Below are positions 6,600 to 38,495 of a stretch of 64,000 nucleotides of DNA, piece after piece (position 1 is the first letter of the stretch; each line of letters begins with the position of its first letter). Both the position numbers and the translations under genes were made by a program. Source of the stretch: Haloarcula salinisoli (GTDB lineage Archaea; Halobacteriota; Halobacteria; Halobacteriales; Haloarculaceae); NCBI RefSeq assembly GCF_019599405.1, contig NZ_RKLQ01000001.1, positions 1,116,001-1,180,000 on the forward strand, in the 5' to 3' direction. The notes below the pieces were generated by a model. It had not been told where the DNA came from. It searched no databases and saw nothing but the letters and a program-made list of their open reading frames with translations.

Positions 6600-7112
6600 T
6601 CACTGTACTTCGTCGTAGGTCTGCTCGATAGACTGCTGGCCCCCGATACTGTCCGACATGGTCCTGGTGAGCAGGTCGAAGACGACGACGACCGGATACA
6701 GCAGGAGGCTGACGTACCGCAGCGGCCGGATGACACGCAGCGCGAACGTCTGGGCGTGGCCCAGACCGTAGGACTTGGGGATGATTTCCCCGGCAATCAG
6801 GATGACCGTACTGGCGACGACCGTCGTGGCGAGGACGGCCAGCCCCGGGTCGAGCCGGTCGACCAGCACCGCGGTCAGGAGACTCGACAGCGTGATATTG
6901 ACGACGTTGTTCCCGACAAGCAGTGTGACCAGCAGTCTGTGTGGGTCCTCGAGGACGTCAGCGACGGCGGCCGCCCGCCGGTCGGTCTCGGCCGCGTCGG
7001 CCAACCACTCCCGAGAGAGCGAGAACAGCGCCGTCTCGCTGCTGGAAAAGAAGGCGCTACACCCGAGCAGAGCGACGATGGCGACGAGCGTCGGTGCGAG
7101 CGGAACAGACAT
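6600..7112 (-). CDS. DUF21 (CNNM-type) membrane protein without CBS domains
   Basis: The 170-residue integral membrane protein has about four hydrophobic segments and the CNNM/DUF21 signature: FFSSSETALFSLSREWL near residues 22-38, LLVGNNVVNI near 63 and the GEIIPKSYGLGHA motif near 107-119. Family members couple this transmembrane domain to paired CBS domains and a CorC/HlyC domain and are implicated in Mg2+ or other divalent-cation efflux. Here the chain stops right after the membrane domain, at about 40% of the usual length, and no CBS sequence follows downstream in any frame. It may be a naturally short form or a truncated remnant. Confidence 0.8.
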   Translation of the reverse strand: MSVPLAPTLVAIVALLGCSAFFSSSETALFSLSREWLADAAETDRRAAAVADVLEDPHRLLVTLLVGNNVVNITLSSLLTAVLVDRLDPGLAVLATTVVASTVILIAGEIIPKSYGLGHAQTFALRVIRPLRYVSLLLYPVVVVFDLLTRTMSDSIGGQQSIEQTYDEVQ

Positions 7113-23588: not shown

Positions 23589-24929
23589 ATGGAACCACTG
23601 CGTGGTGCGCAGTCGACGGTCGGTGAGACGACGGTCGTCACGCGCGGGTGCCGACTCGGTTCGGGCGCGGTCCGGACTGTCCTGGAAGCCGAGAGACGAC
23701 CACGCTTTGGCTGGTCGACACCGACGGAATCGATAGCGGCCGCCGGTGCCGCCGCGACCGTGACCGCCGAAGGTGCCTCGCGGTTCGACGACGTGCGCGG
23801 GGCGGCCGCGGCGCTTTTCGACACGTGTGAGACGCCGACCGGCGGGCTCCCGAGCGTGGCCCGACCGCGGCTGTACGGCGGGTTCGCGTTCCACGACGGG
23901 GACCACGACGGCGAGGATTCGCCGTGGGACGAGTTCCCGGGTGCGGCCTTCTTCCTCCCGGAGGTCCAGGTAACCGAACGTGACGGCAGCCGCTGGCTCA
24001 CGACCGCGGCGGCCGGCGACGACGCGGCCGACCGGGCCGAGGCTCGGCTCGCCACGTGGAAAGACCGGCTGGCCGACGAGCCGGCGGTCAACGCCAAACG
24101 CAGACCCGGTATCGTCGCCCGCGAGCGAGAGCCCTCCCAGGGGGCCTGGCGCGACCAGGTCGGCCGGGCGCTCGAAAGCGTCGAGGCGGGGACCCTCCAG
24201 AAGGTCGTCCTCGCGCAGGCGCTCCGGGTCAGTCTCCAGTCCGAGCTCTCGGTGCCGGACGTCTTCGCCCGGCTGGCCGACACCTACCCGGACTGCTACC
24301 GGTTCATGTTCTCCCCGACCGACGGCGCCACGTTCTACGGTGCGACGCCCGAGCGGCTCGTCTCCCTTCGCGGTCGCACCGTCAGGACCGAAGCCCTCGC
24401 CGGCTCGACCGGTCGGGGAGACACCCCAGCTGAGGACGAGTGGCTGGCCACGGAGCTGCTCGACAGCACCAAGGACATCCACGAACACGAAATTGTCGCG
24501 GAGGCCATCCGCGACCAGCTGGAACCCTTTGCCGCCTCGGTCCGCATCGGCGACCGTACCATTCGACGGCTGGCGACGGTCCAGCATCTGCGGACCTCGA
24601 TAACGGCCGAACTCGCAGACGACGAGCACGTCCTCTCGCTCGTGGACGCCCTGCATCCGACGCCCGCCGTCGGCGGCCTGCCGCCCGACGAGGCCTTGCG
24701 GACCATCCGCGAGACGGAGGCGTTCGACCGTGGCTGGTACGCCGCGCCCATCGGGTGGCTGGACGCGGCCGGCAACGGGACCTTCGCCGTCGGCATCCGG
24801 TCCGCGGTGGCTACCGGACGGACGGCGACGCTCTTTGCCGGCGCGGGGATCGTCGCCGACAGCGACCCCGACCGCGAGTGGGACGAAGTGCAACTGAAAT
24901 ACCGGCCGATGCTCGACGAACTCGAATGA
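23589..24929 (+). CDS. menF: Isochorismate synthase
   Basis: The 446-residue enzyme converts chorismate to isochorismate, the entry step of menaquinone synthesis. The chorismate-binding fold is shown by VLAQALRVSL, the EALAGSTGRG motif near 266-275, TKDIHEHEIV with the catalytic glutamate near 297-305, and the C-terminal GAGIVADSDPDREWDEVQLK. The partner is certain: its stop overlaps the menD start by 4 nt (ATGA). ATG 23589 directly follows GAGGTG and is preferred over GTG 23586. A salicylate or anthranilate function is made unlikely by the neighbour. Confidence 0.94.
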   Translation: MEPLRGAQSTVGETTVVTRGCRLGSGAVRTVLEAERRPRFGWSTPTESIAAAGAAATVTAEGASRFDDVRGAAAALFDTCETPTGGLPSVARPRLYGGFAFHDGDHDGEDSPWDEFPGAAFFLPEVQVTERDGSRWLTTAAAGDDAADRAEARLATWKDRLADEPAVNAKRRPGIVAREREPSQGAWRDQVGRALESVEAGTLQKVVLAQALRVSLQSELSVPDVFARLADTYPDCYRFMFSPTDGATFYGATPERLVSLRGRTVRTEALAGSTGRGDTPAEDEWLATELLDSTKDIHEHEIVAEAIRDQLEPFAASVRIGDRTIRRLATVQHLRTSITAELADDEHVLSLVDALHPTPAVGGLPPDEALRTIRETEAFDRGWYAAPIGWLDAAGNGTFAVGIRSAVATGRTATLFAGAGIVADSDPDREWDEVQLKYRPMLDELE

Positions 24930-26689
24930 GCTACCCGAACGTCAACACTCTCTGGGCCGAGACGCTGGTAGAAGAACTGGTCGCCGGCGGGGTCGAAGCG
25001 GTGTGTGTCTCGCCGGGCAGTCGCTCGACGCCGCTCACCGTTGCCTGTGCCGAACACACCGACCTGCGCGTCTATTCACACCTCGACGAACGCTCTTCGG
25101 CCTTCTTCGCACTGGGGCGGGCGAAACGGACTGGCGAGCCGACGCCGCTCGTCTGTACCTCGGGGACTGCGGCCGCGAACTTCCACCCCGCAGTCATCGA
25201 GGCCAGCCAGTCCGGGGTGCCGATGCTCGTCCTCACCGCAGACCGGCCGCCGGAACTCACCGATAGCGGGGCCAACCAGACTATCGATCAGGAGAAACTG
25301 TACGGCGACGCCGTCCGCTGGTACCGCGATATGCCCGAGCCGGCGGCCGAGCCGCGCAAGGTGCGGATGTTGCGAACCACTGTCGCGCGGGCGCTCGCCA
25401 ACAGTACCGGCAGCGACCCCGGTCCGGTCCATCTGAACTGTCGGTTCCGCAAGCCGCTGGAGCCGACGCCGGTACCCGACGACCACCCCGAGGGCGTCCC
25501 CGAGAACTGGGCCGGCGGCGACCCGCTCGCCGCCGAGGGCCGCGACGGCCCGTTCGTCACGACCGCCCAGGGCGCCGGCCGACTCGACGACGCCGACCTG
25601 TCACGCGTCGTTTCGCCGGTCGAGGCCGCCGACCGCGGCCTCGTCGTCGCAGGGCCGGCGGACGGGGGGCTGGGGTCCGACGCGCTGGGGGCGCTGGCCG
25701 ACGCGACGGGGTTCCCCGTCCTCGCGGACCCCCTCTCGAATCTCCGCTCTGGCTCCCACGTCGCCGACCACCCCGTCCTCGGCGGCTACGACGCGTATCT
25801 GGGGACCGACGCCGTCGCCGACTGGCCCGACCCCGACGTAGTACTGCGCTTTGGCGCCTCGCCGACCTCGAAGCCCCTGCGCCAGTACCTCCGAGACGCC
25901 GACTGTCGGCAGTTCGTCGTCGCCCCCAGCGGCCGCTGGACGGAGGCGACCTTCACCGCCAGCGACCTGCTGGTCGCGGACCCTGACGAGACGGCGAGAG
26001 ATATCGCCGAGCGGGTGGCCGAACCGGGTGACCCCGCGTGGGCCGACCGCTTCCGGCGTGCCGACCAGACTCACTGGGACACAGTCACGGACGCACTGGA
26101 CGGGGCCTACTGGGAGGGCGGTGTGCTGGCCGACGTGACACGGCTGGCCCCCGACCCGGCGACGCTGTTCGTCTCGAACAGTATGCCCGTCCGCGACCTG
26201 GACCGCTTTGGCGAGCCGCGGACGGCCGACCACACGGTGCTAGGGAACCGCGGCGCGAGCGGTATCGACGGCATCACGTCGACGGCACTGGGGGCGGGCA
26301 GTGCCACCGAGGACCCGCTCGTGCTCGTCACCGGTGACCTGGCGTACTACCACGACATGAACGGGTTGCTCGCGCTCGCTCGCTGTGGCGTCGACGCCAC
26401 TATCGTCCTCGTCGACAACGACGGCGGCGGCATCTTCCATATGCTCCCCATCGAGGACCACGAGACCTTCGAGTCCCAGTTCAAGACGCCACACGGGCTG
26501 GACTTCGAGCCCACCGGCGAGCTCTATGGGCTGGCGTTCGAACGCCTCGAGAGTCGCGAGGCGTTCGTCGACGCGTTCGAGCGCTCCGCGGGCAGCGGTG
26601 GGACCCAGGTGCTGTCGGTCGCCTTCGACGCCGCGGACAGCCACGCCCGACGTGACGCACTCCAGGACCGACTCGTCGACGCGTTCTAG
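24926..26689 (+). CDS. menD: 2-succinyl-5-enolpyruvyl-6-hydroxy-3-cyclohexene-1-carboxylate synthase
   Basis: The 587-residue thiamin-diphosphate enzyme joins isochorismate with 2-oxoglutarate-derived succinic semialdehyde. Seen are CVSPGSRSTPLTVA (about 27-40), TSGTAAANFHPAVIEA (about 76-91), GNRGASGIDG near 439-448 and the ThDP/Mg2+ loop LVTGDLAYYHDMNG then VLVDNDGGGIFHMLP near 495-510. Its length is typical. The start at 24926 shares the ATGA with the menF stop; the longer open frame to 24440 lies inside menF and is not real. The gene converges on, and overlaps by 4 nt, the DnaJ-like gene. Confidence 0.96.
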   Translation: MSYPNVNTLWAETLVEELVAGGVEAVCVSPGSRSTPLTVACAEHTDLRVYSHLDERSSAFFALGRAKRTGEPTPLVCTSGTAAANFHPAVIEASQSGVPMLVLTADRPPELTDSGANQTIDQEKLYGDAVRWYRDMPEPAAEPRKVRMLRTTVARALANSTGSDPGPVHLNCRFRKPLEPTPVPDDHPEGVPENWAGGDPLAAEGRDGPFVTTAQGAGRLDDADLSRVVSPVEAADRGLVVAGPADGGLGSDALGALADATGFPVLADPLSNLRSGSHVADHPVLGGYDAYLGTDAVADWPDPDVVLRFGASPTSKPLRQYLRDADCRQFVVAPSGRWTEATFTASDLLVADPDETARDIAERVAEPGDPAWADRFRRADQTHWDTVTDALDGAYWEGGVLADVTRLAPDPATLFVSNSMPVRDLDRFGEPRTADHTVLGNRGASGIDGITSTALGAGSATEDPLVLVTGDLAYYHDMNGLLALARCGVDATIVLVDNDGGGIFHMLPIEDHETFESQFKTPHGLDFEPTGELYGLAFERLESREAFVDAFERSAGSGGTQVLSVAFDAADSHARRDALQDRLVDAF

Positions 26690-27627
26690 TACCGCAGGGC
26701 CGCAGCCGTCAGTACCGAGAAGCCAAAGGGGAGGACGGTGCCTAACAGTACGACGAGCCCGACGGGCGAGACGTAACCGACACCGAACAGCCCCAGCCCG
26801 ACGATACTAATGGCGCTCCAGCCGCCAAAGAGCAACACCGCCACGCGTGGCATCGACTGGAGATACATTATCGTCAACAGCGTACACGCGCTGAGTATCA
26901 CGTTGACAAATGGCGGGAACGCGGGGAGGAGGGCCGAAAACAACAGCACGGGGTAGAGCGCGAAGAAGAGACCAAGTAGTGTGAGTTGTCGGCCCTGGGG
27001 CAACAGGGGCCCGTGGCTGGTCGACGTGGAGACGTTCTCGCGGACGCTGTAGGTGCTGCCACTCGCCGTTGCGCTGGTCGTGTCGGTGGCCGCTGTCCGG
27101 CGTCCGCCGGTCGGTGTCGTCTCGTAGTCGCTGGTACTCCTGGTCGTACTCGTCGAGGCAGACGCCGACGCGGTGTCTGCGTCGTCGGTCCCGGTCCGCC
27201 CTTCCTGGGCGGTCTCACGACGCCGCTGTCGGGCGTCCCGGGCCTTTCGGCGCTCCTGGCTGACGCGCTCGCTGGCCCGCTGTTCCCGTCGAGCGCGGCT
27301 CTGGCTCGTACCACCGCTGGTCCCGGTGTCGCTCGAACGGGCGTCGCTGTCAGTGTCGCGACCGCTCGTCTCGGTCGCCGCGTCCCTCGCAGCAGCCGCG
27401 CCGTCCCCGACGTAGGCCTCGTGACCCAGGCGGTCGTAGCGCGCCCGCTCGTCCTCGTCGACGAGCACGTCGCGGGCTTCGATGAGCGTCTTCGTGGCCT
27501 GGCCCGCGTCGTCGTCGTCGCTGACGTCGGGATGGGTCTCCTTGAGCCGCTCCCGGTAGGCGGACTCTATCTCGTCGGTCGTCGCGTCCTCGGCGACGCC
27601 GAGCACGTCGTAGAAGCTCTCGGTCAT
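26686..27627 (-). CDS. J-domain protein with C-terminal membrane segments
   Basis: The 313-residue protein has an N-terminal J domain (1-68) with the essential HPD at 32-34 (LKETHPDVSDDD), so it can stimulate an Hsp70 ATPase. A long low-complexity Ser/Thr/Arg/Glu linker (about 75-205) follows, then three to four hydrophobic helices (LTLLGLFFALYPVLLFSALL..., VGLVVLLGTVLPFGFSVLTAAAL) to the C-terminus. No zinc-finger or DnaJ C-terminal domain is present. The design suggests a membrane-tethered co-chaperone with a cytoplasmic J domain. It converges with menD. Confidence 0.85.
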   Translation of the reverse strand: MTESFYDVLGVAEDATTDEIESAYRERLKETHPDVSDDDDAGQATKTLIEARDVLVDEDERARYDRLGHEAYVGDGAAAARDAATETSGRDTDSDARSSDTGTSGGTSQSRARREQRASERVSQERRKARDARQRRRETAQEGRTGTDDADTASASASTSTTRSTSDYETTPTGGRRTAATDTTSATASGSTYSVRENVSTSTSHGPLLPQGRQLTLLGLFFALYPVLLFSALLPAFPPFVNVILSACTLLTIMYLQSMPRVAVLLFGGWSAISIVGLGLFGVGYVSPVGLVVLLGTVLPFGFSVLTAAALRY

Positions 27628-27686
27628 GAGGGGCGGCGTTGGTACGTAGTCGGCAACATCTCAGTATAAAACCTCGTGACCAATTA

Positions 27687-27932
27687 TCAGTCCCTGGTGA
27701 ACTCGTCTCTCGTCGGTCCGTCGGTACTCCGGTCGGCCATCAGCTCCAGCGCCGTCGCGATTCGGCCCAGCCGCACGACGGCGAGGTAAAACAGATAGAA
27801 GAACCAGAACCCGAGGACGAGGAGGAGGCCAAGCAGTATCTGCTGGAGGATAAACACGCTGTACAGCAACACGAGAACGGAGACCAGCGCGAGCGCGGCC
27901 ATCGGACCGGGGCGCTTGAGCGGGGCGGACAT
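27687..27932 (-). CDS. Small two-helix membrane protein
   Basis: This 81-residue protein has two closely spaced hydrophobic helices (MAALALVSVLVLLYSVFIL and LLGLLLVLGFWFFYLFYLAVV), then a short charged tail. The start at 27932 (MSAPLKRPG) gives a clean topology; the longer frame reads through the menB promoter area. It is divergent from menB across 73 bp. Family and role unknown. Confidence 0.65.
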   Translation of the reverse strand: MSAPLKRPGPMAALALVSVLVLLYSVFILQQILLGLLLVLGFWFFYLFYLAVVRLGRIATALELMADRSTDGPTRDEFTRD

Positions 27933-28005
27933 AGTTTCATATATGGAACAGGTAGACAAAACATTTCTGACAACGCTTTTCCCGTTCTCGGCCCGCAACG
28001 GAGGT

Positions 28006-28908
28006 ATGGTCTCAGAGATTTTCGACCCGGAGCGCTGGGACGCCGTCGACCGATTTGACTTCACCGACATCACCTACCACCGCTCGACAGAGACAGGCGT
28101 GGTGCGCATCGCCTTCGACCGGCCGGAAAAGCGCAACGCCTTCCGCCCCGAGACGGTGGACGAACTTTCGACGGCACTGGACCACGCCAAGCGGCTCACC
28201 GACGTGGGCTGTGTCATCATCACCGGCAACGGCCCCTCCGAGAAGGACGGCGGCTGGGCGTTTTGCTCGGGCGGCGACCAGTCGATTCGGGGCGAGAGCG
28301 GGTACGAGTACGAGGCAGATGCCGATATCGGTGACCCAGATGCGCCGGAGAACGTCGGTCGCCTCCACATCCTGGAGGTCCAGCGCCAGATTCGCCACAT
28401 TCCCAAACCAGTCGTCGCCGTCGTCCCGGGGTGGGCCGTCGGCGGCGGCCACTCGCTGCACGTGGTCTGTGACCTGACGCTGGCCAGCGAGGAACACGCG
28501 AAGTTCCTCCAGACCGACCCCGACGTGGGGAGTTTCGACGGTGGCTTTGGCTCGGCGTATCTCGCCCGCCAGATCGGCCAGAAGAAGGCCCGCGAGGTGT
28601 TCTTCCTCGGGAAGACGTATTCGGCCGAGGAGGCTGCGGACATGGGGATGGTCAACGAAGTCGTCCCCCACGAGGAACTCGAAGCGACGGCCATCGAGTG
28701 GGCCGAGCGGATGATGGAGAAATCGCCCACGGCGATGCGGATGCTGAAGTACGCCTTCAACCTCGACTCGGACGGGATGGTCGGCCAGCAGGTCTTCGCC
28801 GGGGAGGCGACCCGACTCGCCTACATGACCGAGGAGGCCCAGGAAGGTCGGGACGCGTTCAACGAGGGACGAGAGCCGGATTTCAGCGACGAACCCTGGC
28901 ACTACTGA
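28006..28908 (+). CDS. menB: 1,4-dihydroxy-2-naphthoyl-CoA synthase
   Basis: The 300-residue crotonase-fold enzyme closes the second ring of the naphthoquinone from o-succinylbenzoyl-CoA. MenB-specific sequence is plain: FDRPEKRNAFRPETVDEL, SGGDQSIRG, GWAVGGGHSLHVVCDLTLAS, and PDVGSFDGGFGSAYLARQIGQ with the characteristic aspartate and serine. A GGAGGT ribosome site directly abuts ATG 28006, which fixes the start against an open frame to 27916. It stands 1.3 kb from menD and is separately transcribed. Confidence 0.95.
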   Translation: MVSEIFDPERWDAVDRFDFTDITYHRSTETGVVRIAFDRPEKRNAFRPETVDELSTALDHAKRLTDVGCVIITGNGPSEKDGGWAFCSGGDQSIRGESGYEYEADADIGDPDAPENVGRLHILEVQRQIRHIPKPVVAVVPGWAVGGGHSLHVVCDLTLASEEHAKFLQTDPDVGSFDGGFGSAYLARQIGQKKAREVFFLGKTYSAEEAADMGMVNEVVPHEELEATAIEWAERMMEKSPTAMRMLKYAFNLDSDGMVGQQVFAGEATRLAYMTEEAQEGRDAFNEGREPDFSDEPWHY

Positions 28909-29107
28909 TACTGGTGGCTGTATGGACGTGGGGATAACGAGCTCAGAGTAGTACCCTGGGCGTGGACGATTCCAGACCCGCTTGACTGTAGCTGCCTCTC
29001 TGGAGCTTTCTTTCGTGAAAAACTATGGCATTTATCCTCCTCACACTGTCTCGTGCTACTGTGTTCCAAATGACCGACTCCAGTAAACGAGCAACTGCGG
29101 GCGAACA
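28909..29107. other. Lower-GC spacer upstream of the SDR gene
   Basis: No gene is seen. The stretch is visibly richer in A+T than its surroundings (CTTTCTTTCGTGAAAAACTATGGC...). GCATTTATCC near 29029-29038 is a TATA-like site but lies about 75 nt before the next ATG. Confidence 0.4.
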
Positions 29108-29890
29108 ATGAGTCAACTACTCACAGACGAGACGGCCATCGTGACGGGCGGGGCAAGTGGCATCGGCCGGAACATCGCGTTGACGTTTGCCGATAACGGA
29201 GCCGATGTCGTCGTCGCCGACGTCCGGGAAACGCCACGAGAAGGTGGCGAGCCGACACACGAGCAAATTACGACCGAGACCGACCGAACGGCGGTCTTCG
29301 TCGAGTGCGATGTGACCGAGCGAGCGGATGTAGAAGCCGCTGTCGACGCTGCCGACAAGCTCGGCGGCCTCGACATCATGGTCAACAACGCAGGCATTCA
29401 CAGTGAGACCCCGTTCCTCGAGATTACGGAAGCGGAATACGACCAGCTCATGGACGTTAACGTCAAAGGCACCTTTTTCGGGGCGCAGGTCGCTGGCGAA
29501 CGACTAATCGAAAACGACGAGGGCGGGACGATCATCAACATGGCGAGCCTCGCGGCAGATAGCGGGGCCGCTTACCAGACGATATACAGTGCTTCGAAAG
29601 GGGCAGTGAAATCACTGACCTACGCGCTGGCTGACTACTTCGGTGGCCACGGGGTTCGCGTCAACGCTATCAAACCAAGTTTCACCGAGACACAGATGTT
29701 AGCTCAGGGGGGAATGGGAGAAGGTGAAGCCGGCAAACGACTCCAGGAGGCAATGCTGGGTGGGACACCCGCCGGTCGCTTCGGCCAACCCGATGAAATC
29801 GCGGATGTGGCGCTGTTTCTCGCCAGTGATATGAGTTCCTACGTCAACGGTGAGTCGATCCTGGTCGATGGGGGTCTCGGGAATACCTAG
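29108..29890 (+). CDS. Short-chain dehydrogenase/reductase
   Basis: The 260-residue NAD(P)-dependent oxidoreductase has a TGGASGIG cofactor loop (14-21), NNAG near 94-97, a serine in INMASLAAD and the catalytic YSASK near 160-164. The C-terminal end (YVNGESILVDGGLGNT) is typical of the classical FabG/glucose-dehydrogenase-like branch. D in VVADVRE after strand 2 suggests NAD preference. Its base composition is lower in GC and its codons are less biased than in neighbouring genes, hinting at recent transfer. It breaks the menaquinone region between menB and menACE. Substrate unknown. Confidence 0.88.
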   Translation: MSQLLTDETAIVTGGASGIGRNIALTFADNGADVVVADVRETPREGGEPTHEQITTETDRTAVFVECDVTERADVEAAVDAADKLGGLDIMVNNAGIHSETPFLEITEAEYDQLMDVNVKGTFFGAQVAGERLIENDEGGTIINMASLAADSGAAYQTIYSASKGAVKSLTYALADYFGGHGVRVNAIKPSFTETQMLAQGGMGEGEAGKRLQEAMLGGTPAGRFGQPDEIADVALFLASDMSSYVNGESILVDGGLGNT

Positions 29891-29932
29891 TCGCCGTCAG
29901 TCTGATTGGGGCAGGCCCGGCCCTGCTATAGC

Positions 29933-31543
29933 TCACCCCTCCCCTATCATCCGGTCTTCCTCGTCCCACTCGCGCTGGCGCAGTTCGTACTTCTGGACCT
30001 TTCCGGTGGCCGTCGTCGGGAGCGACTCGACGAACTCGACCTTGCTGACCGCCTTGTAGGTCGCCAGATGCGCACGGGTGAACGAGACGAGTTCGTCCAC
30101 GTCGGTCCCCGGCTCGTCGGGGTCGCCCGAGGTCGGGACGACGAACGCCTTCGGGGTCTCGCCCCACTCGCTGCTGGGGGCCGGGATGACCGCCACGTCC
30201 GCGACGGCGTCGTGTTCGTACAGCGTGTCCTCCAGCTCGATGCTGGAGATGTTCTCGCCGCCGGAGATGATGATGTCCTTCTTGCGGTCGCGGATAGCTA
30301 TCATCCCGTTCTCGTCGACCGTCGCGAGGTCGCCGGTGTGGTAGTACCCCTCGATGCGGTCGGTGAACGCTTCCTCGGTCGCCTCGGGCTTGTTCCAGTA
30401 GCGGTCCATCACCTGGTTGCCCCGGACGACGACCTCGCCGAGCGTCGCGTCGTCTTCGGGGACGTCCGTCCCGTCTTCGTCGACAACGCGAACCTCCGTG
30501 CCGAGATAGCCCAGTCCCTGGCGCTTCTTCACGGCAAAGCGGGCGTCGCTCCCGTCCTCGAAGAACCGGCGCGCATCCGAGGTGGTGATGAGCGGTCCCG
30601 TCTCGGTCGCCCCGTAGACGTGTTTGAGATACCAGCCGAAGTCGTCCTCCACGGCGCGGATGACCGCCTCGGGCGGGGCGCTGCCGGCGGTGGCGATACG
30701 GACGTCACGGTCGCCGGTCGTCGCCACGTCGTGGCGCTCGTAGTAGTCGACCAGCATGTTGAGCACTGTCGGCGCGCCACAGAGGTACGTGACGTCTTCT
30801 GTGCGGATGGCCTCGAAGATGCCGCCGGCGTCCACCCCGCGCGTACAGACGTGTGTCGCGCCCATCCCCGTCACCGCGAAGATGTGTCCCCAGCCGTTGA
30901 CGTGGAACATCGGGAGCGTCCAGAGGTAGACGTCGTCGTCGCGTATCTCCTGGTGGAGGCTCACGATGTAGGCGTGGAGCGTCTCGGTCCGGTGGGTCCG
31001 ACAGACGCCTTTGGGGTCGCCCGTCGTCCCGGAGGTGTAGTTGATAGTGATGACGTCGTTCTCGTCCATCTTGGGTCGCTCGAACGTCTCGTCGGTGTCG
31101 ACGAGTTCGTCGAAGGACTCCCAGTCGCCGTCGACGGCGTCGGTGTCGTTCGTCACGAACGTCTCCGTCGGGACCTCGTCTCGTACGGCTTCGATTTTCT
31201 CGGCGTGTTCGTAGTCGGCGTAGATGGCGTCGACGCCGGCGTCTTCGAGGATGTACTCGAAGTCGTCCGGGACCAGCCGGTAGTTCAGCGGCGTGTGGAC
31301 CGCCCCGAGTTGCATGATGCCGTAGGCCGCTTCGAGGTGGTAGTGGGTGTTCGGGTCCAGCACGGCCACCCGGTCCCCCTTCTCGATGCCGCGGTCCGCG
31401 AGGGCCGCGGCGAACCCGTCGGCGCGGGCACCGAACTCGTCGTACGTGTACCGGTCGCCGGTCGTCGCGACGATGGCCTCCCTGTCGCCGTAGTATCGTC
31501 GCGCACGGTCGAGAAAGTCGGTCACGAGGAGTGGCTTTTCCAT
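29933..31543 (-). CDS. Acyl-CoA synthetase (AMP-forming)
   Basis: The 536-residue ANL-superfamily ligase adenylates a carboxylic acid and transfers it to CoA. Signatures: INYTSGTTGDPKGV (about 169-182), the YGATETGP motif near 314-321, YHTGDLATVDENG near 406-418, RKKDIIISGGENIS near 424-437 and the C-terminal lysine of TATGKVQKYELR. This branch is usually annotated medium/long-chain fatty-acid-CoA ligase. It could load substrates for the beta-oxidation fusion at 2353, but that link is only inferred. A palindromic ATTATATAAT box gives a leaderless transcript. Confidence 0.9.
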   Translation of the reverse strand: MEKPLLVTDFLDRARRYYGDREAIVATTGDRYTYDEFGARADGFAAALADRGIEKGDRVAVLDPNTHYHLEAAYGIMQLGAVHTPLNYRLVPDDFEYILEDAGVDAIYADYEHAEKIEAVRDEVPTETFVTNDTDAVDGDWESFDELVDTDETFERPKMDENDVITINYTSGTTGDPKGVCRTHRTETLHAYIVSLHQEIRDDDVYLWTLPMFHVNGWGHIFAVTGMGATHVCTRGVDAGGIFEAIRTEDVTYLCGAPTVLNMLVDYYERHDVATTGDRDVRIATAGSAPPEAVIRAVEDDFGWYLKHVYGATETGPLITTSDARRFFEDGSDARFAVKKRQGLGYLGTEVRVVDEDGTDVPEDDATLGEVVVRGNQVMDRYWNKPEATEEAFTDRIEGYYHTGDLATVDENGMIAIRDRKKDIIISGGENISSIELEDTLYEHDAVADVAVIPAPSSEWGETPKAFVVPTSGDPDEPGTDVDELVSFTRAHLATYKAVSKVEFVESLPTTATGKVQKYELRQREWDEEDRMIGEG

Positions 31544-31566
31544 TGCAGAGATACGTACGAATAATC

Positions 31567-31576
31567 ATTATATAAT
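31567..31576 (-). promoter_or_regulatory. TATA box of the acyl-CoA synthetase gene
   Basis: ATTATATAAT is centred 28 nt before the ATG at 31543, so transcription should begin at or next to the start codon. Confidence 0.7.
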
Positions 31577-31619
31577 CTCTTTGTCTCGTCGGAGCGGCGG
31601 TGACGACTGCGGTCTGGCG

Positions 31620-33410
31620 TTACTCCGACGGCACCTCGGCGAGCGGCAGCGTCAGTTCGACTTCGGTCCCGCGGTCGGTCTCGCTGATACTGAACGTCCC
31701 GCCGCTGTTTGTCGCCATCCACCGGACGAACCACAGTCCGAGCCCCTGGGTGTGCTGGAGCTCGTCTTCGATGCCCGAGTTGAGCGCGTCCAGCTCCACC
31801 GCTTCCAGCCGGTCGCCGTCGTGGCAGACATAGATACTGACGGTCCCGTCCTCGGTATCGGCGGCCATCTCGACAACCACCTCGACGTCGGCCCCAGCAG
31901 TCGCGGCACGCTTAAGCAGCTCGCCCATTGCCAGCTCGTAGGAGTCGTGAGCCCTCGCCCACAGGGACTCGGGGATGTCGGCGACGATACGGACACCGTC
32001 GTGTTCAATACGGACCTCTTCGACTGCGTGCCCGGTCTCCTCGCCAACGTCGACTGGGCCGACGGCATCGTCCTCGGCCGGGTCTATGGTCCGCTTGAAC
32101 CCGCGGGCCGTCTCGGCCAGTTCGAGCAGTTCCTCGCCGGCGCGCTCGATGGTCGTCGCCGCGTCGACGATTTCACCGTCCTCGCTCCGCTCGTTTATCC
32201 GGTCGACCTGTGCCAGCATCACCAGCAGCTTGTTTCGGAGGTTGTGTCGCAGGACGCGGTCGAGCACGGAGAGGCGCGACTCGCGCTCCCGGTCTTCGGT
32301 GATGTCACGACTCACGCAGACGACACCCTCGAACTCGGCCGTCGGCAGGACCGCCACCGTGGTCTGGAAGCGCCGGTGGCGGCCATCCTCGTCCTCGACT
32401 ACGGTGCCGATGGTCATCTCCTCCCTGCCGGACTCCGCGAGATTCAGCACCGCGGCACCGAGCACTTCGGCGTGGTCCTCGCCGAACACCGTCTCCACGT
32501 GACTGCCCAGTATCTCGGCTTCCGTCTGTTGGCTGAACGCCGTGACCGCTTCGTTCACCAGGGTAAACTGGAGGTCGCTGTCGAGCGCGTAGATGGGGTC
32601 TCCGGCGGCATTGACGATCTCCTCGTAACGCTGGAGCGTCTGCGTCCGTTCGACGCGCTCGGTGACGTCCTCCTGAAATCCGACGAAGTGGGTCACCTCC
32701 CCCTCGCCGTACACCGGCGATATCTCCAGCGCGTTCCAGAACATCTCGCCGTTCTTTCGGTAATTCCGTAGCAGGACAGCCACGGGCCGTTCCTCGTCGA
32801 TGGCTCTCCGTATCTCCCGGACGGGCTCGTCCTCGGTATCGGGCCCCTGCAGGAACCGGCAGTTCCGCCCGAGGGTCTCTGAGCGGTCGTAGCCCGTCAT
32901 CTCGAGAAAGGCGTCGTTGACGTACCGGAGCTCCTGGTCGCCGTCGGCGTCGGCGATACTGATGCCAGTCTTCGCGTCGTCCATCGCGCGGGCGAAAAGC
33001 GCCAGCTGCTCGGACTGAGTGCGGGACCTGAGCAACGTCGAGATGCGGTGGCGGAATATCTGCTTCGAGGTGGGGACCGCGAGCACGTCGTCGATACTGT
33101 CCCAGTACGGCCGTGCGGCCTGTTCGGAGTCGCTCGGGCCCAGCACGAGCAGGACGGGGAGTCGGACCGAGCCGAGTTCGCTGCGTCGCTCCTCGATTGT
33201 GTCGACTATCCTCGGGAAGGAGGTCGTGTCTGCGACACAGAGGTCGAACTGTGGGAGCGGCTCCGACTGTTCGACGGTAACGACCTCGAGGTCCACCGAG
33301 TGCAGTTGCTCACTCAGCAGCGCCTGGTCGCGGGGGTTCCCGACATGCAACAGGACGCGGGGCGAACTGTTGAGCAGGCTCTCCGGCCCTTGGAACGACG
33401 AGTCGAACAT
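31620..33410 (-). CDS. LOV-PAS sensor protein of the histidine-kinase type
   Basis: The 596-residue protein has a receiver-like N-terminal domain without a clear phospho-acceptor (about 15-125), a LOV domain (about 135-250), a second PAS (about 255-370), a histidine box (VLRHNLRNKLL, about 384-394) and an HATPase-like end. The LOV domain holds all flavin-site residues: the adduct cysteine C184 in GRNCRFLQ, both asparagines in NYRKNGEMFWN, and the glutamine of FVGFQEDVT, so blue-light sensing is likely. The ATPase part is odd: the N-box asparagine is missing (ELLKRAATA) and DNGPGI is replaced by HDGDRL, while GLGLWFVR remains. Its ATG overlaps the stop of the KaiC-like gene, so the two are translationally coupled. 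Confidence 0.88.
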   Translation of the reverse strand: MFDSSFQGPESLLNSSPRVLLHVGNPRDQALLSEQLHSVDLEVVTVEQSEPLPQFDLCVADTTSFPRIVDTIEERRSELGSVRLPVLLVLGPSDSEQAARPYWDSIDDVLAVPTSKQIFRHRISTLLRSRTQSEQLALFARAMDDAKTGISIADADGDQELRYVNDAFLEMTGYDRSETLGRNCRFLQGPDTEDEPVREIRRAIDEERPVAVLLRNYRKNGEMFWNALEISPVYGEGEVTHFVGFQEDVTERVERTQTLQRYEEIVNAAGDPIYALDSDLQFTLVNEAVTAFSQQTEAEILGSHVETVFGEDHAEVLGAAVLNLAESGREEMTIGTVVEDEDGRHRRFQTTVAVLPTAEFEGVVCVSRDITEDRERESRLSVLDRVLRHNLRNKLLVMLAQVDRINERSEDGEIVDAATTIERAGEELLELAETARGFKRTIDPAEDDAVGPVDVGEETGHAVEEVRIEHDGVRIVADIPESLWARAHDSYELAMGELLKRAATAGADVEVVVEMAADTEDGTVSIYVCHDGDRLEAVELDALNSGIEDELQHTQGLGLWFVRWMATNSGGTFSISETDRGTEVELTLPLAEVPSE

Positions 33411-34864
33411 CAGTCGGCCTGTTGTGTCGGGGTCCCGGTCAGCACCCCTCTGAGTTCCGAGAGCGTCTCCCCGATGTGGATGCCGTCGTCTTCGATACTG
33501 AACGCCCGAAGCGTGGCTTCGAACCCACCGAAGCGCTTCTTGAGGACGCCGATAGCCTTCCGTATCTCGCCACCGACCTCGATGTAGCGGATAAAGACGA
33601 CGGTATCGGCGAGGTAGCTCACCTGCGAGTCCGACGCCTGGAAGGTTCCGGTCACCGACGAGAGCTCGTCAGTGAGCGCGACGGTGACGCCCATGTTCCG
33701 GAGATAGCGACAGAGCTTGTGGAGCTCCTCGCGCAGCTCCGCCTCGGGGTTCTGGAGGGCGAGCCTGTAGCCGGCGGTGCCATCGAGCAGGACGAACTCG
33801 ACCCCTCGCTCTTCGACGCTCTCGCGGACCCGGTGGGCGAACTCGTCGGCGGAGATGCTCAGTGGCTCCACCTCGTGTACCTCCAGCGCCCCCTCCTCGA
33901 TGAGAGCGGACACATCGAGGCCGATGGCGTTCGAGCGATGGCTGAAACTGTGTCGGGACTCCTCGAACAGGAACGCCGCCGCCGTCTCGCCGCGGCGGGC
34001 GCTCGCACGCGCCAGGGCTGTCCCGGTCGTGGATTTCCCGACGCCGGATGGCCCGCTGACCAGCGTGATGCTGCCGCGCTCGATGCCGCCCCCCAGCAGA
34101 GTGTCGAGGGCGTCGATGTCGGTCGAGAGCTGCTCGTAGCTGAACACCTGTTCGTGGTCGTCGGGGGCGAGGCTCGGGAACACTGACAGCCCGCGACCGC
34201 CGTCTATTCGCAGGCCGTGGCTGCCGCTCCGGAACCCAGACCCACGGAACTTTTCGACCTCGAGTTCACGGCCCCGGTCGGTACGGCGCATCGTTATCGA
34301 GCCGTCGGCCAGATACTGGAGGTCCTCGTCGGAGTGATCCGCAGTCGATTGGGTGGTAAAGAGCGTCGTGCTCCCGCGCTCTTTCATGTAGCTCATCATC
34401 GACGCCGCGGTCCGCTTGAACTGGAAGTCGTCGGGTGAGAGGTGGCGAAGCAGCGTGAGCGGGTCGATGAACACGCGGTCGGGGTCGTGGGTCTCGACGG
34501 TGTCCCCGATGCGGGAGACTATCTCGCTCGCCTCGACCTCGCCTGGTCCGAACACCGTGTAGTTGCCGTCGTCCATGAACTCGGTGGCCGAGGGACTCAT
34601 ATCCTCGATGATTACGTCGTCGAGGTCGAAACCGAGCGTGGCGGCGTTGGCCGCGATGTCTTTCGCCGTCTCCTCGAACGCAAAGTAGACGCTGGTCTCG
34701 TCGGCGTCGGTCCCGGCTGTCAGGAAGTGGTACCCGAGAATCGTCTTGCCCGTCCCGGAGTCGCCGCGGATACTGTAGGTACGCTCGTCGATGAACCCGC
34801 CGTCGAGAATCGCGTCGAGTCCGGATATCCCGGACGAGACCCGGGGGGACTGTCCCGAATTCAT
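33410..34864 (-). CDS. KaiC-family double-domain ATPase
   Basis: The 484-residue protein has two RecA/KaiC domains, as in cyanobacterial KaiC. Domain 1 (about 8-235) has Walker A GDSGTGKT at 34-41, the paired catalytic glutamates in FAFEET and Walker B RVFIDPLT. Domain 2 (about 240-470) has GPSGVGKST near 268-276, FLFEES and VEFVLLDGTAG. Both ATP sites look intact. In haloarchaea such KaiC homologues occur without KaiA or KaiB. Here the gene is first in an operon with the LOV-PAS protein (4-nt ATGA overlap), suggesting light or redox input to the ATPase or the reverse. The serine/threonine autophosphorylation pair of KaiC-CII cannot be confirmed. Confidence 0.92.
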   Translation of the reverse strand: MNSGQSPRVSSGISGLDAILDGGFIDERTYSIRGDSGTGKTILGYHFLTAGTDADETSVYFAFEETAKDIAANAATLGFDLDDVIIEDMSPSATEFMDDGNYTVFGPGEVEASEIVSRIGDTVETHDPDRVFIDPLTLLRHLSPDDFQFKRTAASMMSYMKERGSTTLFTTQSTADHSDEDLQYLADGSITMRRTDRGRELEVEKFRGSGFRSGSHGLRIDGGRGLSVFPSLAPDDHEQVFSYEQLSTDIDALDTLLGGGIERGSITLVSGPSGVGKSTTGTALARASARRGETAAAFLFEESRHSFSHRSNAIGLDVSALIEEGALEVHEVEPLSISADEFAHRVRESVEERGVEFVLLDGTAGYRLALQNPEAELREELHKLCRYLRNMGVTVALTDELSSVTGTFQASDSQVSYLADTVVFIRYIEVGGEIRKAIGVLKKRFGGFEATLRAFSIEDDGIHIGETLSELRGVLTGTPTQQAD

Positions 34865-34900
34865 AGCCCTATTTCAGTATGATACGACAAAAGTGTAGTT

Positions 34901-34909
34901 CTTATATTA
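34901..34909 (-). promoter_or_regulatory. TATA box of the KaiC-LOV operon
   Basis: TAATATAAG on the minus strand is centred about 41 nt upstream of the KaiC start, predicting a leader of roughly 15 nt. It lies in an AT-rich island within the divergent menA spacer (34865-35000). Confidence 0.6.
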
Positions 34910-35000
34910 CGTCAGAATACTGTGAACGTATCTGGCCCGCACGGCCTATCTCCCGGGTCGAACCACAGTCGATTTGAGGCACGGAACCTAATTTCGGCCA

Positions 35001-35954
35001 ATGAGTACCGCGACGGTCTCGAAACGCAAGGCCTGGCTCATGGCCGCCAGGCCACAGACGCTGCCCGCCGGTGCCGCACCAGTCGTCGTCGGTGCGGGGC
35101 TGGCCGTCCACGCGGGGGTGTTCGAACCGCTCGTGGCGCTGGCGGCGCTGGTCGGGGCGCTGCTCATCCAGGTCGGGACGAACTTTGCGAACGACTACTA
35201 CGACGCCGTCAAGGGTGCCGATACGGACGAGCGCGAGGGCTTCACCCGCGTCACCGCCGGCGGCCTCATCGAACCGGCGGCGGTCAAGCGGGCAATGGTA
35301 CTGACCTACGCGCTGGCGGTCGTCGTCGGCGTCGCGCTCGTGGCCATCGGCGGTGTTCCCATCGTGGTCGTCGGCCTCTCGGGCATCGCCGCCGGTATCC
35401 TCTACACCGGTGGTCCGCTCCCGTACGGCTACCGCGGCCTGGGTGACCTCTTCGTGTTCGTCTACTTCGGACTGGTCGCCGTCACCGGCACCTACTACGT
35501 GCAGGCCGTGGCCAGCAACCCCGCGATCGGGACGTTCCCGACCACGCTACCACCCGGTACTGTCCCGGTAGACGCCGTGGTCGCGAGCCTCCCGGCCGCG
35601 GGGCTCTCGACGGCTATCCTCGTCGTCAACAACGTCCGGGACCGCGAGACGGACATGGCGGCGGGCAAGAAGACCCTCGCGGTGTATCTGGGCTATGGCC
35701 CGAGTCGCGTCGAGTTCCTCGCCCTCGTCGGGATGGCTTACGTCGTTCCGGTCCTGTTCGCGCTGGACCCGGCCTACGGTCTGGCGGCGCTGGCCCCGCT
35801 GCTGACGCTACCGCTCGCACTCGGAATCAGTCGGACCGTCCTCACCCGGACCGACGGCGAGGCGCTGAACCCGACACTCGAACGGGTCGGCCAGACGCTC
35901 TTTGCCCACTCGCTGCTGTTTGCCGCCGGGCTGGCACTCCCACAGTTGCTATGA
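35001..35954 (+). CDS. menA: 1,4-dihydroxy-2-naphthoate polyprenyltransferase
   Basis: The 317-residue integral membrane UbiA-family enzyme attaches the prenyl chain to dihydroxynaphthoate. The first aspartate motif is [15 protein letters not shown] (about 55-69) and the second is [19 protein letters not shown] (about 209-227). [16 protein letters not shown] near the N-terminus is typical of MenA. About eight to nine hydrophobic helices are visible. It is the first gene of the menA-menC-menE operon, overlapping menC by 4 nt. The longest chain made cannot be read; haloarchaea commonly use MK-8. Confidence 0.95.
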
Positions 35955-36997
35955 AGACGACGCCGTTCTCGCTCCCGCTGTCCAGCCCACTCGCGACTGC
36001 CAGCGGGACTATCGAGGCTCGCGAGGGGGTCCTGGTCCGGTACGACCACCGAGGGGAGACCGGTATCGGCGAGGCGACACCGCTGCCCGGGTGGACCGAA
36101 TCCCTGACTGACTGCCGCGCCGCTCTCGACACGGCCGCCGCCGCCGAAACCCAGGGCGGCCACACCGCCGCGATGCTCGAACTCGCGGCCGACAGCGTCC
36201 CCGCGGCGCGGCACGGCTTCGCGACCGCGCTGCTGGACGCCGACGCACGGGCCGACGGCGTCCCGCTCTATCGGTGGTTCGACGCCGACCGCCACTGCGA
36301 GACCGTCCCGGTCAACGCAACCGTCGGCGATAGCGACCCGGCAGACACGGCCGACGCGGTCGCCCGCGCGGTCGACCAGGGCTTTGACTGCTGCAAGCTG
36401 AAAGTCGGCGCCCGGAGCGTCGCGGCCGACGTCGAGCGGGTTCGCGCGGTCCGCGACCGAGTCGGCGACCACGTCAGGCTGCGGGCCGACGCCAACGGCG
36501 CGTGGAGCCGCGAGCAGGCGACACGGGCCTTCGACGCCGTCGCCGACCTCGGTGTCGACTACGTCGAACAGCCCCTCGCGGCCGAGGACCTTTCGGGACA
36601 CGCCGACCTGCGGGGCGGGCCAGTCGGTGTCGCGCTGGACGAATCGCTGATACACCGGCGGGCCGACGCCGTCCTCTCGGCAGACGCCGCGGACGTGCTG
36701 ATACTGAAACCGATGGTACTGGGCGGGCCTGGCAACGCCCACACGCTGGCGCTGCGGGCCCGCGAGCAGGGCATCGAGCCGGTCGTGACGACCACCATCG
36801 ACGGGGTCGTCGCCCGGCTGGCGGCGCTGCACGTCGCCGCCGCCGTCCCCGATATCGGTCCCTGCGGGCTGACCACGGGCGACCGGCTGGCGCGTGACCT
36901 CGCACCGGATCCGACGACGGTCGCCGACGGCGAGATGACTGTCCCCCAGCGTGACGGACTCGGAGTCGACCCGGACGAGGTGACGCCGGATGCGTGA
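35951..36997 (+). CDS. menC: o-Succinylbenzoate synthase
   Basis: The 348-residue enolase-superfamily enzyme dehydrates SHCHC to o-succinylbenzoate. The catalytic KxK is in CKLKVGA near 141-147, metal ligands are in RADANGAW near 177-184, VEQPL near 202 and ALDESL near 222, and a second lysine is in LILKPMVLGG near 246. It begins [10 protein letters not shown] with a GEATPLPGW substrate loop. Overlaps of 4 nt with menA and 8 nt with menE mark a tight operon. A muconate or N-acylamino acid racemase activity is possible in this family, but the context favours MenC. Confidence 0.93.
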   Translation: MKTTPFSLPLSSPLATASGTIEAREGVLVRYDHRGETGIGEATPLPGWTESLTDCRAALDTAAAAETQGGHTAAMLELAADSVPAARHGFATALLDADARADGVPLYRWFDADRHCETVPVNATVGDSDPADTADAVARAVDQGFDCCKLKVGARSVAADVERVRAVRDRVGDHVRLRADANGAWSREQATRAFDAVADLGVDYVEQPLAAEDLSGHADLRGGPVGVALDESLIHRRADAVLSADAADVLILKPMVLGGPGNAHTLALRAREQGIEPVVTTTIDGVVARLAALHVAAAVPDIGPCGLTTGDRLARDLAPDPTTVADGEMTVPQRDGLGVDPDEVTPDA

Positions 36998-38495
36998 GCC
37001 GGTCGACTGGCCGACCCAGGACCTGGTGGCCCACCGCGCCGGGACGACGCCAGAGCGAACGGCTATCGTGGACGCCGACAGCGGTGGCGAGCGAACCTAC
37101 CGCGAACTCGATGCCGCCGTCGACTCGGTCGCGGCCGCGTTCGACGCCGTCTGTGCGTCCGCTGGCGGCCGCGTCGCCGCACTGGTCGACACCCGGCCGG
37201 CGGTCGCGGAGCTGCTCTACGCCGCGTTGCGCACCGGACGGACCTTCGTGCCACTGAACGTCGACCTCGACGCCGATACGCTCGCGGCGCAGCTCGACCG
37301 CGTCGACGCCGGCCTGCTGGTGTGTGAGCGCGAGACCGAGTCGCTGGCGGACGAAATCGCCGACTGTTCGGTCGTCTCAGTCGACGAGCCCGCCTCGGCG
37401 GCCGTCGAGCCGCTCGACCACCAGGCCCCGACGGCCGACGTGACGCCGGCGGAGCTATCGCGTGAGACGACCGCGCTGATGCTGTTCACCAGCGGAACGA
37501 CGAGCGAGCCGAAAGGCGTCCGCCTGACGCTGGGGAATCTCGTCGCGAGCGCGACGGCCTCGGCGTTCCGGCTCGGCGTGCTCCCGTCGGACCGGTGGCT
37601 GGTCTGTCTCCCGACCTACCACATGGGTGGCCTGGCACCGTTTCTCCGGTCGGCGCTGTACGGGACGGCGGTCGTCGTCCAGCGACAGTTCGAGCCGGCC
37701 GAGACGGCCCGCGTCGTTGACGAGCACGACGTCACCGGTGTCTCGCTCGTCCCGACGATGGGCAAGCGACTCGTCGACACCGGCTGGGCCCCCCACGACG
37801 GGCTCCGGGCCGTCCTGCTGGGCGGTGGGCCGGCGGACCCCGACCTCATCGAGCGTGCACTGGCCCGGGATATCCCGGTCTGTCCGACCTACGGGATGAC
37901 CGAGACCGCCTCGCAGATTGCGACCGCCTTGCCGGCCACGGCGGGCGAGTACCGCGACACGGTCGGCCAGCCCCTCGTCAACACGACCGTGACCGTCGTG
38001 GCCGACGGCGAGCCCTGTGGGCCGGGCGAAATCGGCGAACTGGTAGTCGAGGGCCCGACGGTGACGCCGGGGTATCTCGACGCCGACGCGACCGAAGCCG
38101 CGTTCGGCGAGTACGGCTTCCACACCGGCGACCGCGGCTACCGCGATGAGGACGGTCGACTCTGGGTCGTCGGCCGCGCGGACGACCGCATCGTCACCGG
38201 CGGCGAGAACGTCGAGGCCGGGGTCGTTGCAGCCACAATCAGGGACTTTCCTGGCGTCGAGGACGCCGCCGTCGTCGGGCTGCCCGACGAGGAGTGGGGC
38301 CAGCGCGTCGTGGCACTGGTGGCCGGCGACACCGACCCGGAGGAAGTCAGGGCCCACTGCCGGGCCGAACTCGCCCCTTACGAGGTCCCGAAAACAGTTC
38401 GGGTGGTCGACGCCCTGCCGCGAACGCCCTCGGGGACCGTCGACCGGGACGCGGTGCGTAATCGACTACAGGAGCGCTATGACTCGGGGTCGTAG
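36990..38495 (+). CDS. menE: o-Succinylbenzoate-CoA ligase
   Basis: The 501-residue ANL ligase activates o-succinylbenzoate with ATP and CoA for MenB. Motifs: MLFTSGTTSEPKGVRLT (about 163-179), LPTYHMGGLAPFLRS near 208, CPTYGMTETASQ near 294-305, FHTGDRGYRDEDG near 374-386, RADDRIVTGGENVEAG near 391-406 and the final PRTPSGTVDRDA, where the usual catalytic lysine (G-K) is replaced by threonine-valine (SGTVDR). That lysine loss could slow the adenylation half-reaction or be compensated. Its 3' end overlaps the converging XRE gene by 19 nt. Confidence 0.9.
   Translation: MREPVDWPTQDLVAHRAGTTPERTAIVDADSGGERTYRELDAAVDSVAAAFDAVCASAGGRVAALVDTRPAVAELLYAALRTGRTFVPLNVDLDADTLAAQLDRVDAGLLVCERETESLADEIADCSVVSVDEPASAAVEPLDHQAPTADVTPAELSRETTALMLFTSGTTSEPKGVRLTLGNLVASATASAFRLGVLPSDRWLVCLPTYHMGGLAPFLRSALYGTAVVVQRQFEPAETARVVDEHDVTGVSLVPTMGKRLVDTGWAPHDGLRAVLLGGGPADPDLIERALARDIPVCPTYGMTETASQIATALPATAGEYRDTVGQPLVNTTVTVVADGEPCGPGEIGELVVEGPTVTPGYLDADATEAAFGEYGFHTGDRGYRDEDGRLWVVGRADDRIVTGGENVEAGVVAATIRDFPGVEDAAVVGLPDEEWGQRVVALVAGDTDPEEVRAHCRAELAPYEVPKTVRVVDALPRTPSGTVDRDAVRNRLQERYDSGS

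Follow-up and report, generated by a model that had tools for sequence, protein, structure and literature searches.

Does light input reach the KaiC proteins of archaea and, if so, via what? This question is raised by two adjoining genes on the minus strand of a 64,000-nucleotide stretch of the Haloarcula salinisoli genome (hereafter the window, whose numbering we use for all coordinates). Archaeal KaiC-like ATPases have reportedly been portrayed, by Makarova, Galperin and Koonin in 2017, as signalling hubs fed by sensor domains. The cyanobacterial input and output partners of KaiC are largely absent from archaea (PMC5520375). A review from 2025 was aware of no published work on what archaeal pseudo-receivers do (PMC12632262). 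The gene pair described here recurs across salt-loving archaea, where it is marked by a degenerate receiver, and thus represents a possible, testable route for light to KaiC outside cyanobacteria. It also defines a concrete, widespread and testable family of KaiC partners and points to a candidate KaiC-touching domain, most likely the pseudo-receiver.

The gene pair and its products

Both open reading frames lie where the original prediction had placed them, at 33410-34864 and 31620-33410 on the minus strand. The leading gene (33410..34864) encodes a KaiC homologue of 484 aa, in which Pfam finds two stretches of PF06745 (KaiC) and whose best PDB match is the KaiC structure 8zn5 (E 1.2e-60). 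These stretches correspond to two RecA-type domains, CI (approximately residues 9-231; 34172..34840, minus strand) and CII (approximately residues 242-466; 33467..34141, minus strand), each with a Walker A motif (GDSGTGKT and GPSGVGKS, respectively), a catalytic Glu pair and a Walker B motif. The double-domain architecture that had been predicted is thus borne out, and both ATPase sites are conserved. When aligned with Synechococcus KaiC, S416-Y417 (33614..33619, minus strand) are the equivalents of S431/T432, the Thr of T432 being replaced by a Tyr. Among haloarchaeal KaiC homologues, the first position is a Ser in 71/71 and the second a Tyr in 69/71, and some KaiC3 proteins also have a Tyr at the second phosphosite (PMC5520375). 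The C-terminal A-loop and KaiA-binding tail are absent; the protein terminates a few residues after TGTPT, and short C-terminal tails are found in most KaiC homologues as well. A search of the genome for KaiB (PF07689, E 1e-3) returned no match.

A TATA-like TAATATAAG located 5' of the KaiC gene (34901..34909, minus strand), in a block conserved in several Haloarcula-clade genomes, is a probable promoter. At the other end of the gene, the stop codon TGA (33412-33410) shares one base with the start codon ATG of the downstream gene (33410-33408), and the junction is consequently a 1-nt overlap of sequence TGATG (33408..33412, minus strand), not the ATGA originally proposed. In most relatives, the spacing between the two genes is -4, -1, +2 or +3.

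The second gene (31620..33410, minus strand) encodes a LOV protein of 596 aa in which Pfam detects PAS twice and HATPase_c weakly (30.9 bits, for a cut-off of 26.4). Together with an AlphaFold2 model of mean pLDDT 82, this delineates a pseudo-receiver, a LOV domain, a PAS domain, DHp helices and a degenerate HATPase. The LOV domain (approximately residues 138-258; 32637..32999, minus strand), a PAS domain in Pfam, has LOV domains and LOV kinases as its top PDB matches. As had been noted from the sequence, its tetrad is full, with the adduct cysteine C184 (GRNCRFLQ; 32859..32861, minus strand) and N216, N226 and Q246, which would be the flavin-contact residues. For one other archaeal LOV, a photocycle has been demonstrated at high salt (PMC12202551). 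The second PAS domain (approximately residues 262-378; 32277..32627, minus strand), supported by both Pfam and the model, is followed by DHp helices (32088..32273, minus strand) that display the H-box RVLRHNLRNK, with the phospho-acceptor His389 at 32244-32246, and by the HATPase (approximately residues 450-590; 31641..32063, minus strand). This LOV-PAS-DHp-HATPase order is that of Brucella abortus LOV-HK (PDB 6ph4), the structure that the predicted model matches best. In contrast to the Brucella protein, however, the Haloarcula protein has an additional N-terminal pseudo-receiver, a KaiC gene directly upstream, and a HATPase without the N-box Asn and the G1 Asp.

The pseudo-receiver and its genomic association with KaiC

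The N-terminal domain of the LOV protein (approximately residues 17-132; 33015..33362, minus strand), on which the original prediction was silent, is predicted by the model to adopt a receiver fold. It has neither the acidic pair after strand 1 nor the Lys at strand 5, which qualifies it as a pseudo-receiver, and has kept the phospho-acceptor Asp after strand 3 (in VADT). This form is general, since the acidic pair and the Lys are absent in 70/70 aligned KaiC-linked kinases, 64/70 of which have the Asp. At the sequence level, the best match of the pseudo-receiver profile is PleD, not KaiA or CikA.

The search for the gene pair in haloarchaeal genomes that had been suggested at the outset reveals wide conservation, with 39 non-redundant KaiC-linked LOV kinases across haloarchaeal genera, all with the full LOV tetrad, and a pairing far above chance expectation. 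Across 59 genomes, 50/58 pseudo-receiver matches have a two-domain KaiC gene no more than 2.5 kb away, and 43/46 two-domain KaiC genes have a pseudo-receiver neighbor within that distance. Pseudo-receiver and KaiC are both present in 38 of these genomes and both missing from 17, with four exceptions (Fisher p 7e-11), for a profile that was built largely from KaiC-linked sequences and whose matches nevertheless end at E 3.6e-18, well clear of the 1e-8 cut-off. When loci were instead retrieved with a LOV/kinase query, those near KaiC were 29/36 with a pseudo-receiver, 0/32 with no receiver and 0/2 with a real receiver. The pseudo-receiver adjoins KaiC outside Halobacteria as well. Finally, distance matrices correlate better between KaiC and the pseudo-receiver (r 0.72) than between KaiC and the histidine kinase (0.65), or between pseudo-receiver and histidine kinase of one and the same chain (0.60), the first value exceeding the last in 99.7% of cluster bootstraps. 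KaiC presence is thus tracked by the N-terminal pseudo-receiver, not by a dead kinase. This co-occurrence could stem from co-inheritance or operon membership instead of contact.

The reading that we prefer, with a probability of about one half, is that a light/redox sensor docks on KaiC via its pseudo-receiver and that, in the Haloarcula clade with dead kinases, it acts by contact alone. The pair would be the blue-light form of a signalling cassette that haloarchaea encode as two genes; in it, a double-domain KaiC ATPase would be co-translated with a dimeric sensor made of pseudo-receiver, PAS/LOV and histidine kinase. The part that docks on KaiC would likely be the pseudo-receiver. The LOV domain may sense light or the redox state of its flavin, and the signal would run through the PAS domain and the DHp helices, altering the sensor's hold on KaiC and thereby shifting the state of the KaiC ATPase and autokinase. 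What the sequences show is the pairing of the genes, the domain composition, the conserved residues of LOV and KaiC, the co-occurrence of pseudo-receiver and KaiC, and a shared loss of ATP-site residues under purifying selection; the contact between sensor and KaiC, its direction, its control by light, its effect on KaiC and any timekeeping are inference.

Loss of the ATP pocket

Much as predicted, the HATPase of the LOV protein has lost the N-box Asn and the DNGPGI loop. The former is replaced by Arg501 (31908-31910), while the G1 loop has His530 (31821-31823) for the Asp, Asp533 for the Pro and Arg534 for the second Gly, and reads H530-D-G-D-R534 where DxGxG is expected. No change affects His389 (RHNLRN) or the G2 box (GLGLWF), and the domain ranks 39 among the 40 HATPase matches of the genome. 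The N>R and D>H replacements are common to five Haloarcula-clade genomes, in which the H-box RVLRHNLRNK with its His389 is identical and G2 is retained. A decaying pseudogene is not favored, considering the lack of stops and frameshifts, the substitutions common to five genomes and a HATPase dN/dS of approximately 0.25-0.5, well below 1 and indicative of purifying selection; the HATPase-to-LOV rate ratio of the dead kinases is near the value of an intact pair. With the ATP pocket lost and the rest maintained, the protein of this clade is most likely a light-dependent pseudokinase adaptor, which would act by contact.

That a degenerate kinase belongs to the pair, as originally proposed, holds for this protein and its four close relatives, but not as a general rule, most relatives being intact. 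A dead kinase as the hallmark of KaiC partnership was rejected, partial or full pocket loss being no commoner beside KaiC (13/39 linked vs 10/35 unlinked LOV kinases). Loss arose at least three times. Within the orthologous set of eight genomes, 5/5 dead kinases have KaiC and 2/2 members without KaiC have an intact pocket. The orthologue of H. rubra (G368) has an intact pocket. Two observations count against the preferred reading: G392 has a dead kinase with no adjoining KaiC, and in G396, a MAG that is 80% complete, the LOV domain of a dead-kinase relative has a Tyr where the adduct Cys would be.

The flow of information might also be the reverse. KaiC would then be upstream and the sensor a read-out, with KaiC state and light together controlling a histidine kinase that phosphorylates unlinked response regulators, in the manner of SasA/CikA; the dead-kinase Haloarcula clade would be a derived case. 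We consider this possible but somewhat unlikely. It is consistent with the majority of KaiC-linked LOV kinases, which have all the tested ATP-pocket residues and the His, with the KaiC tree, on which a live kinase is ancestral, and with the intact kinases of the KaiC-less receptors in G299, G228 and G037. However, read-out by autophosphorylation is impossible in the five genomes where the N and D of the pocket are replaced and the gene is nonetheless under purifying selection. In the preferred docking reading, too, the sensor of most species would additionally signal as an ordinary histidine kinase.

A phosphorelay might even persist despite a dead HATPase, with His389 phosphorylated in trans by a different histidine kinase within a heterodimer, or with the protein serving as phosphatase or phosphate acceptor, and KaiC modulated only indirectly. 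We view this possibility as improbable. The H-box is identical in 5/5 dead-kinase genomes with G2 retained, and wherever the H-box of a degenerate relative was scored, the His is kept; dimerization and signal passage alone would also conserve the DHp helices, however, and no partner kinase was identified. Natural experiments for testing the proposed partnership are provided by relatives whose kinase is intact, by those whose kinase is dead, by LOV domains without the Cys and by species that deleted KaiC and retained the sensor.

Known systems and species without KaiC

One of the closest known systems is that of Synechococcus, where a double-domain KaiC like that of Haloarcula works with KaiA and CikA, partners with pseudo-receivers and redox/light input (PMC12632262). 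Haloarcula differs by having no KaiB that we could find with PF07689, a KaiC that lacks the KaiA-binding tail and has S-Y at the phosphosite where Synechococcus has S-T, and a pseudo-receiver carried by a LOV kinase. The KaiB-like thioredoxin-fold sensor domain of SasA is absent too, the N-terminal domain of the LOV protein having a receiver fold. It is a long shot that the pseudo-receiver/LOV pseudokinase is the archaeal counterpart of KaiA/CikA, light-driven, binding the KaiC ring through its pseudo-receiver without phosphotransfer and setting the activity or phase of a haloarchaeal timer that relies on KaiC alone. In Haloferax volcanii, according to the available portion of one report (PMC3941300), the two-domain cirC adjoins a PAS-type sensor kinase, 'fixL', and cir genes are expressed in a light/dark-dependent manner. 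The neighbor is described there as an oxygen-sensor FixL, that portion offering no analysis of its domains and reporting neither a LOV link nor a pseudo-receiver. As for Bat of halobacteria, which combines a receiver with a LOV-type flavin domain having a Pro for the Cys (PMC4682037), it resembles the Pro-LOV relatives found in our survey. Unlike the KaiC-linked kinases, however, Bat contains GAF and HTH and is a regulator that binds DNA, and the Haloarcula LOV has the Cys.

An obligate partnership between KaiC and sensor was rejected, since several species have lost KaiC and retained the sensor. In H. pellucida, KaiC was deleted, leaving a scar, while Natronomonas G037 and Halosegnis rubeus have KaiC remnants. 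That the LOV kinase outlives KaiC in these species indicates that KaiC is not its sole client everywhere and that it has other uses. Such survival, along with the menaquinone genes that surround the Haloarcula cassette, would also fit simple operon companions, KaiC and receptor being co-expressed for a light/redox regulon without touching, and the receptor having its targets elsewhere. We deem this very unlikely, because KaiC is tracked much more closely by the pseudo-receiver than by LOV kinases in general (none of the 32 loci without a receiver is near KaiC), and because the adjacency extends beyond Halobacteria. A functional link to the menaquinone genes is attractive since KaiA/CikA pseudo-receivers bind quinones (PMC12632262), but this placement is seen only in the Haloarcula clade and we therefore leave it as a lead.

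The KaiC-sensor gene pair

The window encodes, on the minus strand, a two-domain KaiC of 484 aa (33410-34864) followed by a 596-aa sensor protein (31620-33410), whose closest named relative at this locus is that of Haloarcula rara SHR3 (90% identity); the genus group also includes Halomicroarcula rubra and Haloarcula pellucida. The original prediction that the two genes overlap holds, although the junction reads TGATG rather than ATGA, with stop and start sharing a single base. Each KaiC domain carries a Walker A motif, a catalytic Glu pair, and a Walker B motif, and the protein is without a KaiA-binding tail. In an alignment of 71 haloarchaeal homologues, the position of S431 is always occupied by Ser, and that of T432 by Tyr in 69.

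As delineated by sequence and an AlphaFold2 model (mean pLDDT 82), the sensor consists of a receiver-fold domain (about residues 17-132), a LOV domain (138-258), a PAS domain (262-378), DHp helices (380-441), and a HATPase (450-590), with a Brucella LOV-PAS-HK as best structural match. The LOV tetrad is complete (C184, N216, N226, and Q246), as had been read from the sequence.

KaiC is found at E ≤ 1e-50 in 244 of 391 genomes of the class Halobacteria, to which this genome belongs, and the sensor at E ≤ 1e-60 in 44. In 78 KaiC loci, picked by similarity to the window KaiC, the next gene on the same strand is receiver-like in 63, and in 55 of these it also has a detectable kinase domain. Of these genes, 28 encode a full LOV tetrad, the others displaying ordinary PAS domains or a LOV domain with Pro for Cys. 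Once other loci are added, there are 39 nonredundant KaiC-linked LOV kinases, and the pair is thus conserved outside this genome. Spacings cluster at -4, -1, +2, and +3; in five loci (L120, L125, L138, L146, and L212), the two genes are head to head on opposite strands. In the KaiC-linked kinases of L082, L083, L084, L087, L088, L089, L092, L095, L113, and L131, nearly all of which appear intact, the second PAS-type domain is a LOV domain with Pro for the adduct Cys and Asn/Asn/Gln kept, while L086 additionally has one Asn changed. Halobacterial Bat likewise has a Cys-less LOV domain with Pro (PMC4682037).

A pseudo-receiver associated with KaiC

Modeled separately, the receiver-fold domain (pLDDT 94) structurally matches receivers, and its sequence profile best matches PleD. 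Since the acidic pair and Lys are absent, with the strand-3 Asp kept, we class it as a pseudo-receiver, a form present in all 70 aligned KaiC-linked kinases. Among loci found with a LOV/kinase query, 29 of 36 pseudo-receiver kinases lie <3 kb from a two-domain KaiC; none of 32 kinases lacking a receiver, and neither of two with a true receiver, is near KaiC. Independent searches of 59 whole genomes, one with a pseudo-receiver profile and one for KaiC, placed 50 of 58 pseudo-receivers <2.5 kb from KaiC and gave 43 of 46 KaiC genes a pseudo-receiver neighbor. This result is partially circular because most of the sequences behind the profile were KaiC-linked, although the matches end at 3.6e-18, well clear of the 1e-8 cutoff. 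Presence is concordant in 55 of the 59 genomes (Fisher p 7e-11, a value not for independent events because the genomes are related). The link may predate the class Halobacteria, since in three loci among those read from another lineage of the phylum (L302, L304, and L306) a pseudo-receiver is encoded in the gene after a one- or two-domain KaiC gene. Moreover, distances correlate better between KaiC and pseudo-receiver (r 0.72) than between pseudo-receiver and the kinase domain of its own chain (0.60; cluster bootstrap 0.003 for the reverse order). From this co-occurrence and these correlations, we infer that the pseudo-receiver is the part of the sensor facing KaiC.

KaiC-like proteins have reportedly been proposed as archaeal signaling hubs (by Makarova, in 2017). 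Earlier studies have listed archaeal LOV kinases that also contain receiver and PAS domains (PMC4844311) and have characterized one archaeal LOV (PMC12202551). One report describes Haloferax volcanii cirC, a two-domain KaiC gene adjoining a gene annotated fixL, and a light/dark response of cir expression (PMC3941300). A 2025 review is aware of no study on archaeal pseudo-receiver function (PMC12632262). Our literature search found no report tying LOV to KaiC in archaea, and the new aspect is therefore the pseudo-receiver as a testable marker domain of KaiC-linked sensors.

The degenerate kinase end and a possible mechanism

The HATPase is degenerate, as originally predicted: Arg501 replaces the N-box Asn, and in the G1 box His530 replaces the Asp and Arg534 the second Gly, with His389, the H-box, and the G2 box retained. 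The first two changes are common to five genomes (G000, G394, G395, G384, and G396), all with KaiC upstream; the kinase is intact in H. rubra, where it is KaiC-linked, and in H. pellucida and genome G228, which have no KaiC beside the sensor. Between the dead members, HATPase dN/dS is ~0.25-0.5 and the HATPase/LOV rate resembles that of an intact pair, which points to maintenance of the domain. At least three changes from a live ancestor are needed to account for the dead state on the KaiC tree, and no enrichment of degeneracy beside KaiC was seen among the LOV kinases compared. Action by contact instead of phosphotransfer is thus plausible for the dead-kinase clade but is not a rule for the family. 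In one dead-clade sensor (G396, MAG QS_6_64_34; L159 3155-4948), the adduct Cys is a Tyr (GRNYWFLQ).

In the reading we favor, with a probability of about 0.5, the sensor would dock onto KaiC via its pseudo-receiver, and a light or flavin redox change sensed by LOV would travel via PAS and DHp and thereby modify KaiC. Kinase signaling would additionally be available in most species. Control in the opposite direction, from KaiC to the kinase, would be natural for the intact relatives, and is possible if doubtful. In the dead-kinase clade, kinase signaling would require that the retained His389 be phosphorylated in trans, which we think unlikely. Co-expression of KaiC and sensor without contact is the least probable explanation. 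The analysis establishes the gene pairing, the residues, the co-occurrence, and the selection, from which contact, its direction, and an effect of light are inferred. None of these results supports a timekeeping role; docking with a light or redox input to KaiC remains our preferred reading.

KaiC loss and locus context

In H. pellucida, a short open frame at the KaiC position (L148, about 6780-6980, minus strand), immediately preceding the gene of an intact LOV kinase, fuses residues resembling the start of KaiC (VSSGVPSLGEIL) to residues resembling its end (GITVGERSGDCRGSLTGAPT). It is probably the scar of an in-frame KaiC deletion, the end piece matching by itself at E 8e-4 and the start piece resting on position; this genome has no two-domain KaiC match at E 1e-30. 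In a Natronomonas (L290 8792-9031) and Halosegnis rubeus (L172 2653-2940), all that is left of KaiC is its last 80-96 residues, in frame and ahead of the LOV kinase gene. Retention of the sensor after KaiC loss in these three genomes indicates that it serves purposes apart from the neighboring KaiC.

In Haloarcula-clade genomes, the cassette is enclosed by a menaquinone cluster (menF-menD-menB, acyl-CoA ligase, sensor, KaiC, menA-menC-menE; window 23994-38495), a placement that persists where KaiC is absent and that was not seen in the other genera checked. Between the window and G394 (L157), KaiC dS is 0.83, whereas that of the adjacent sensor gene is 0.09-0.42 depending on the domain, which suggests recombination inside the pair.
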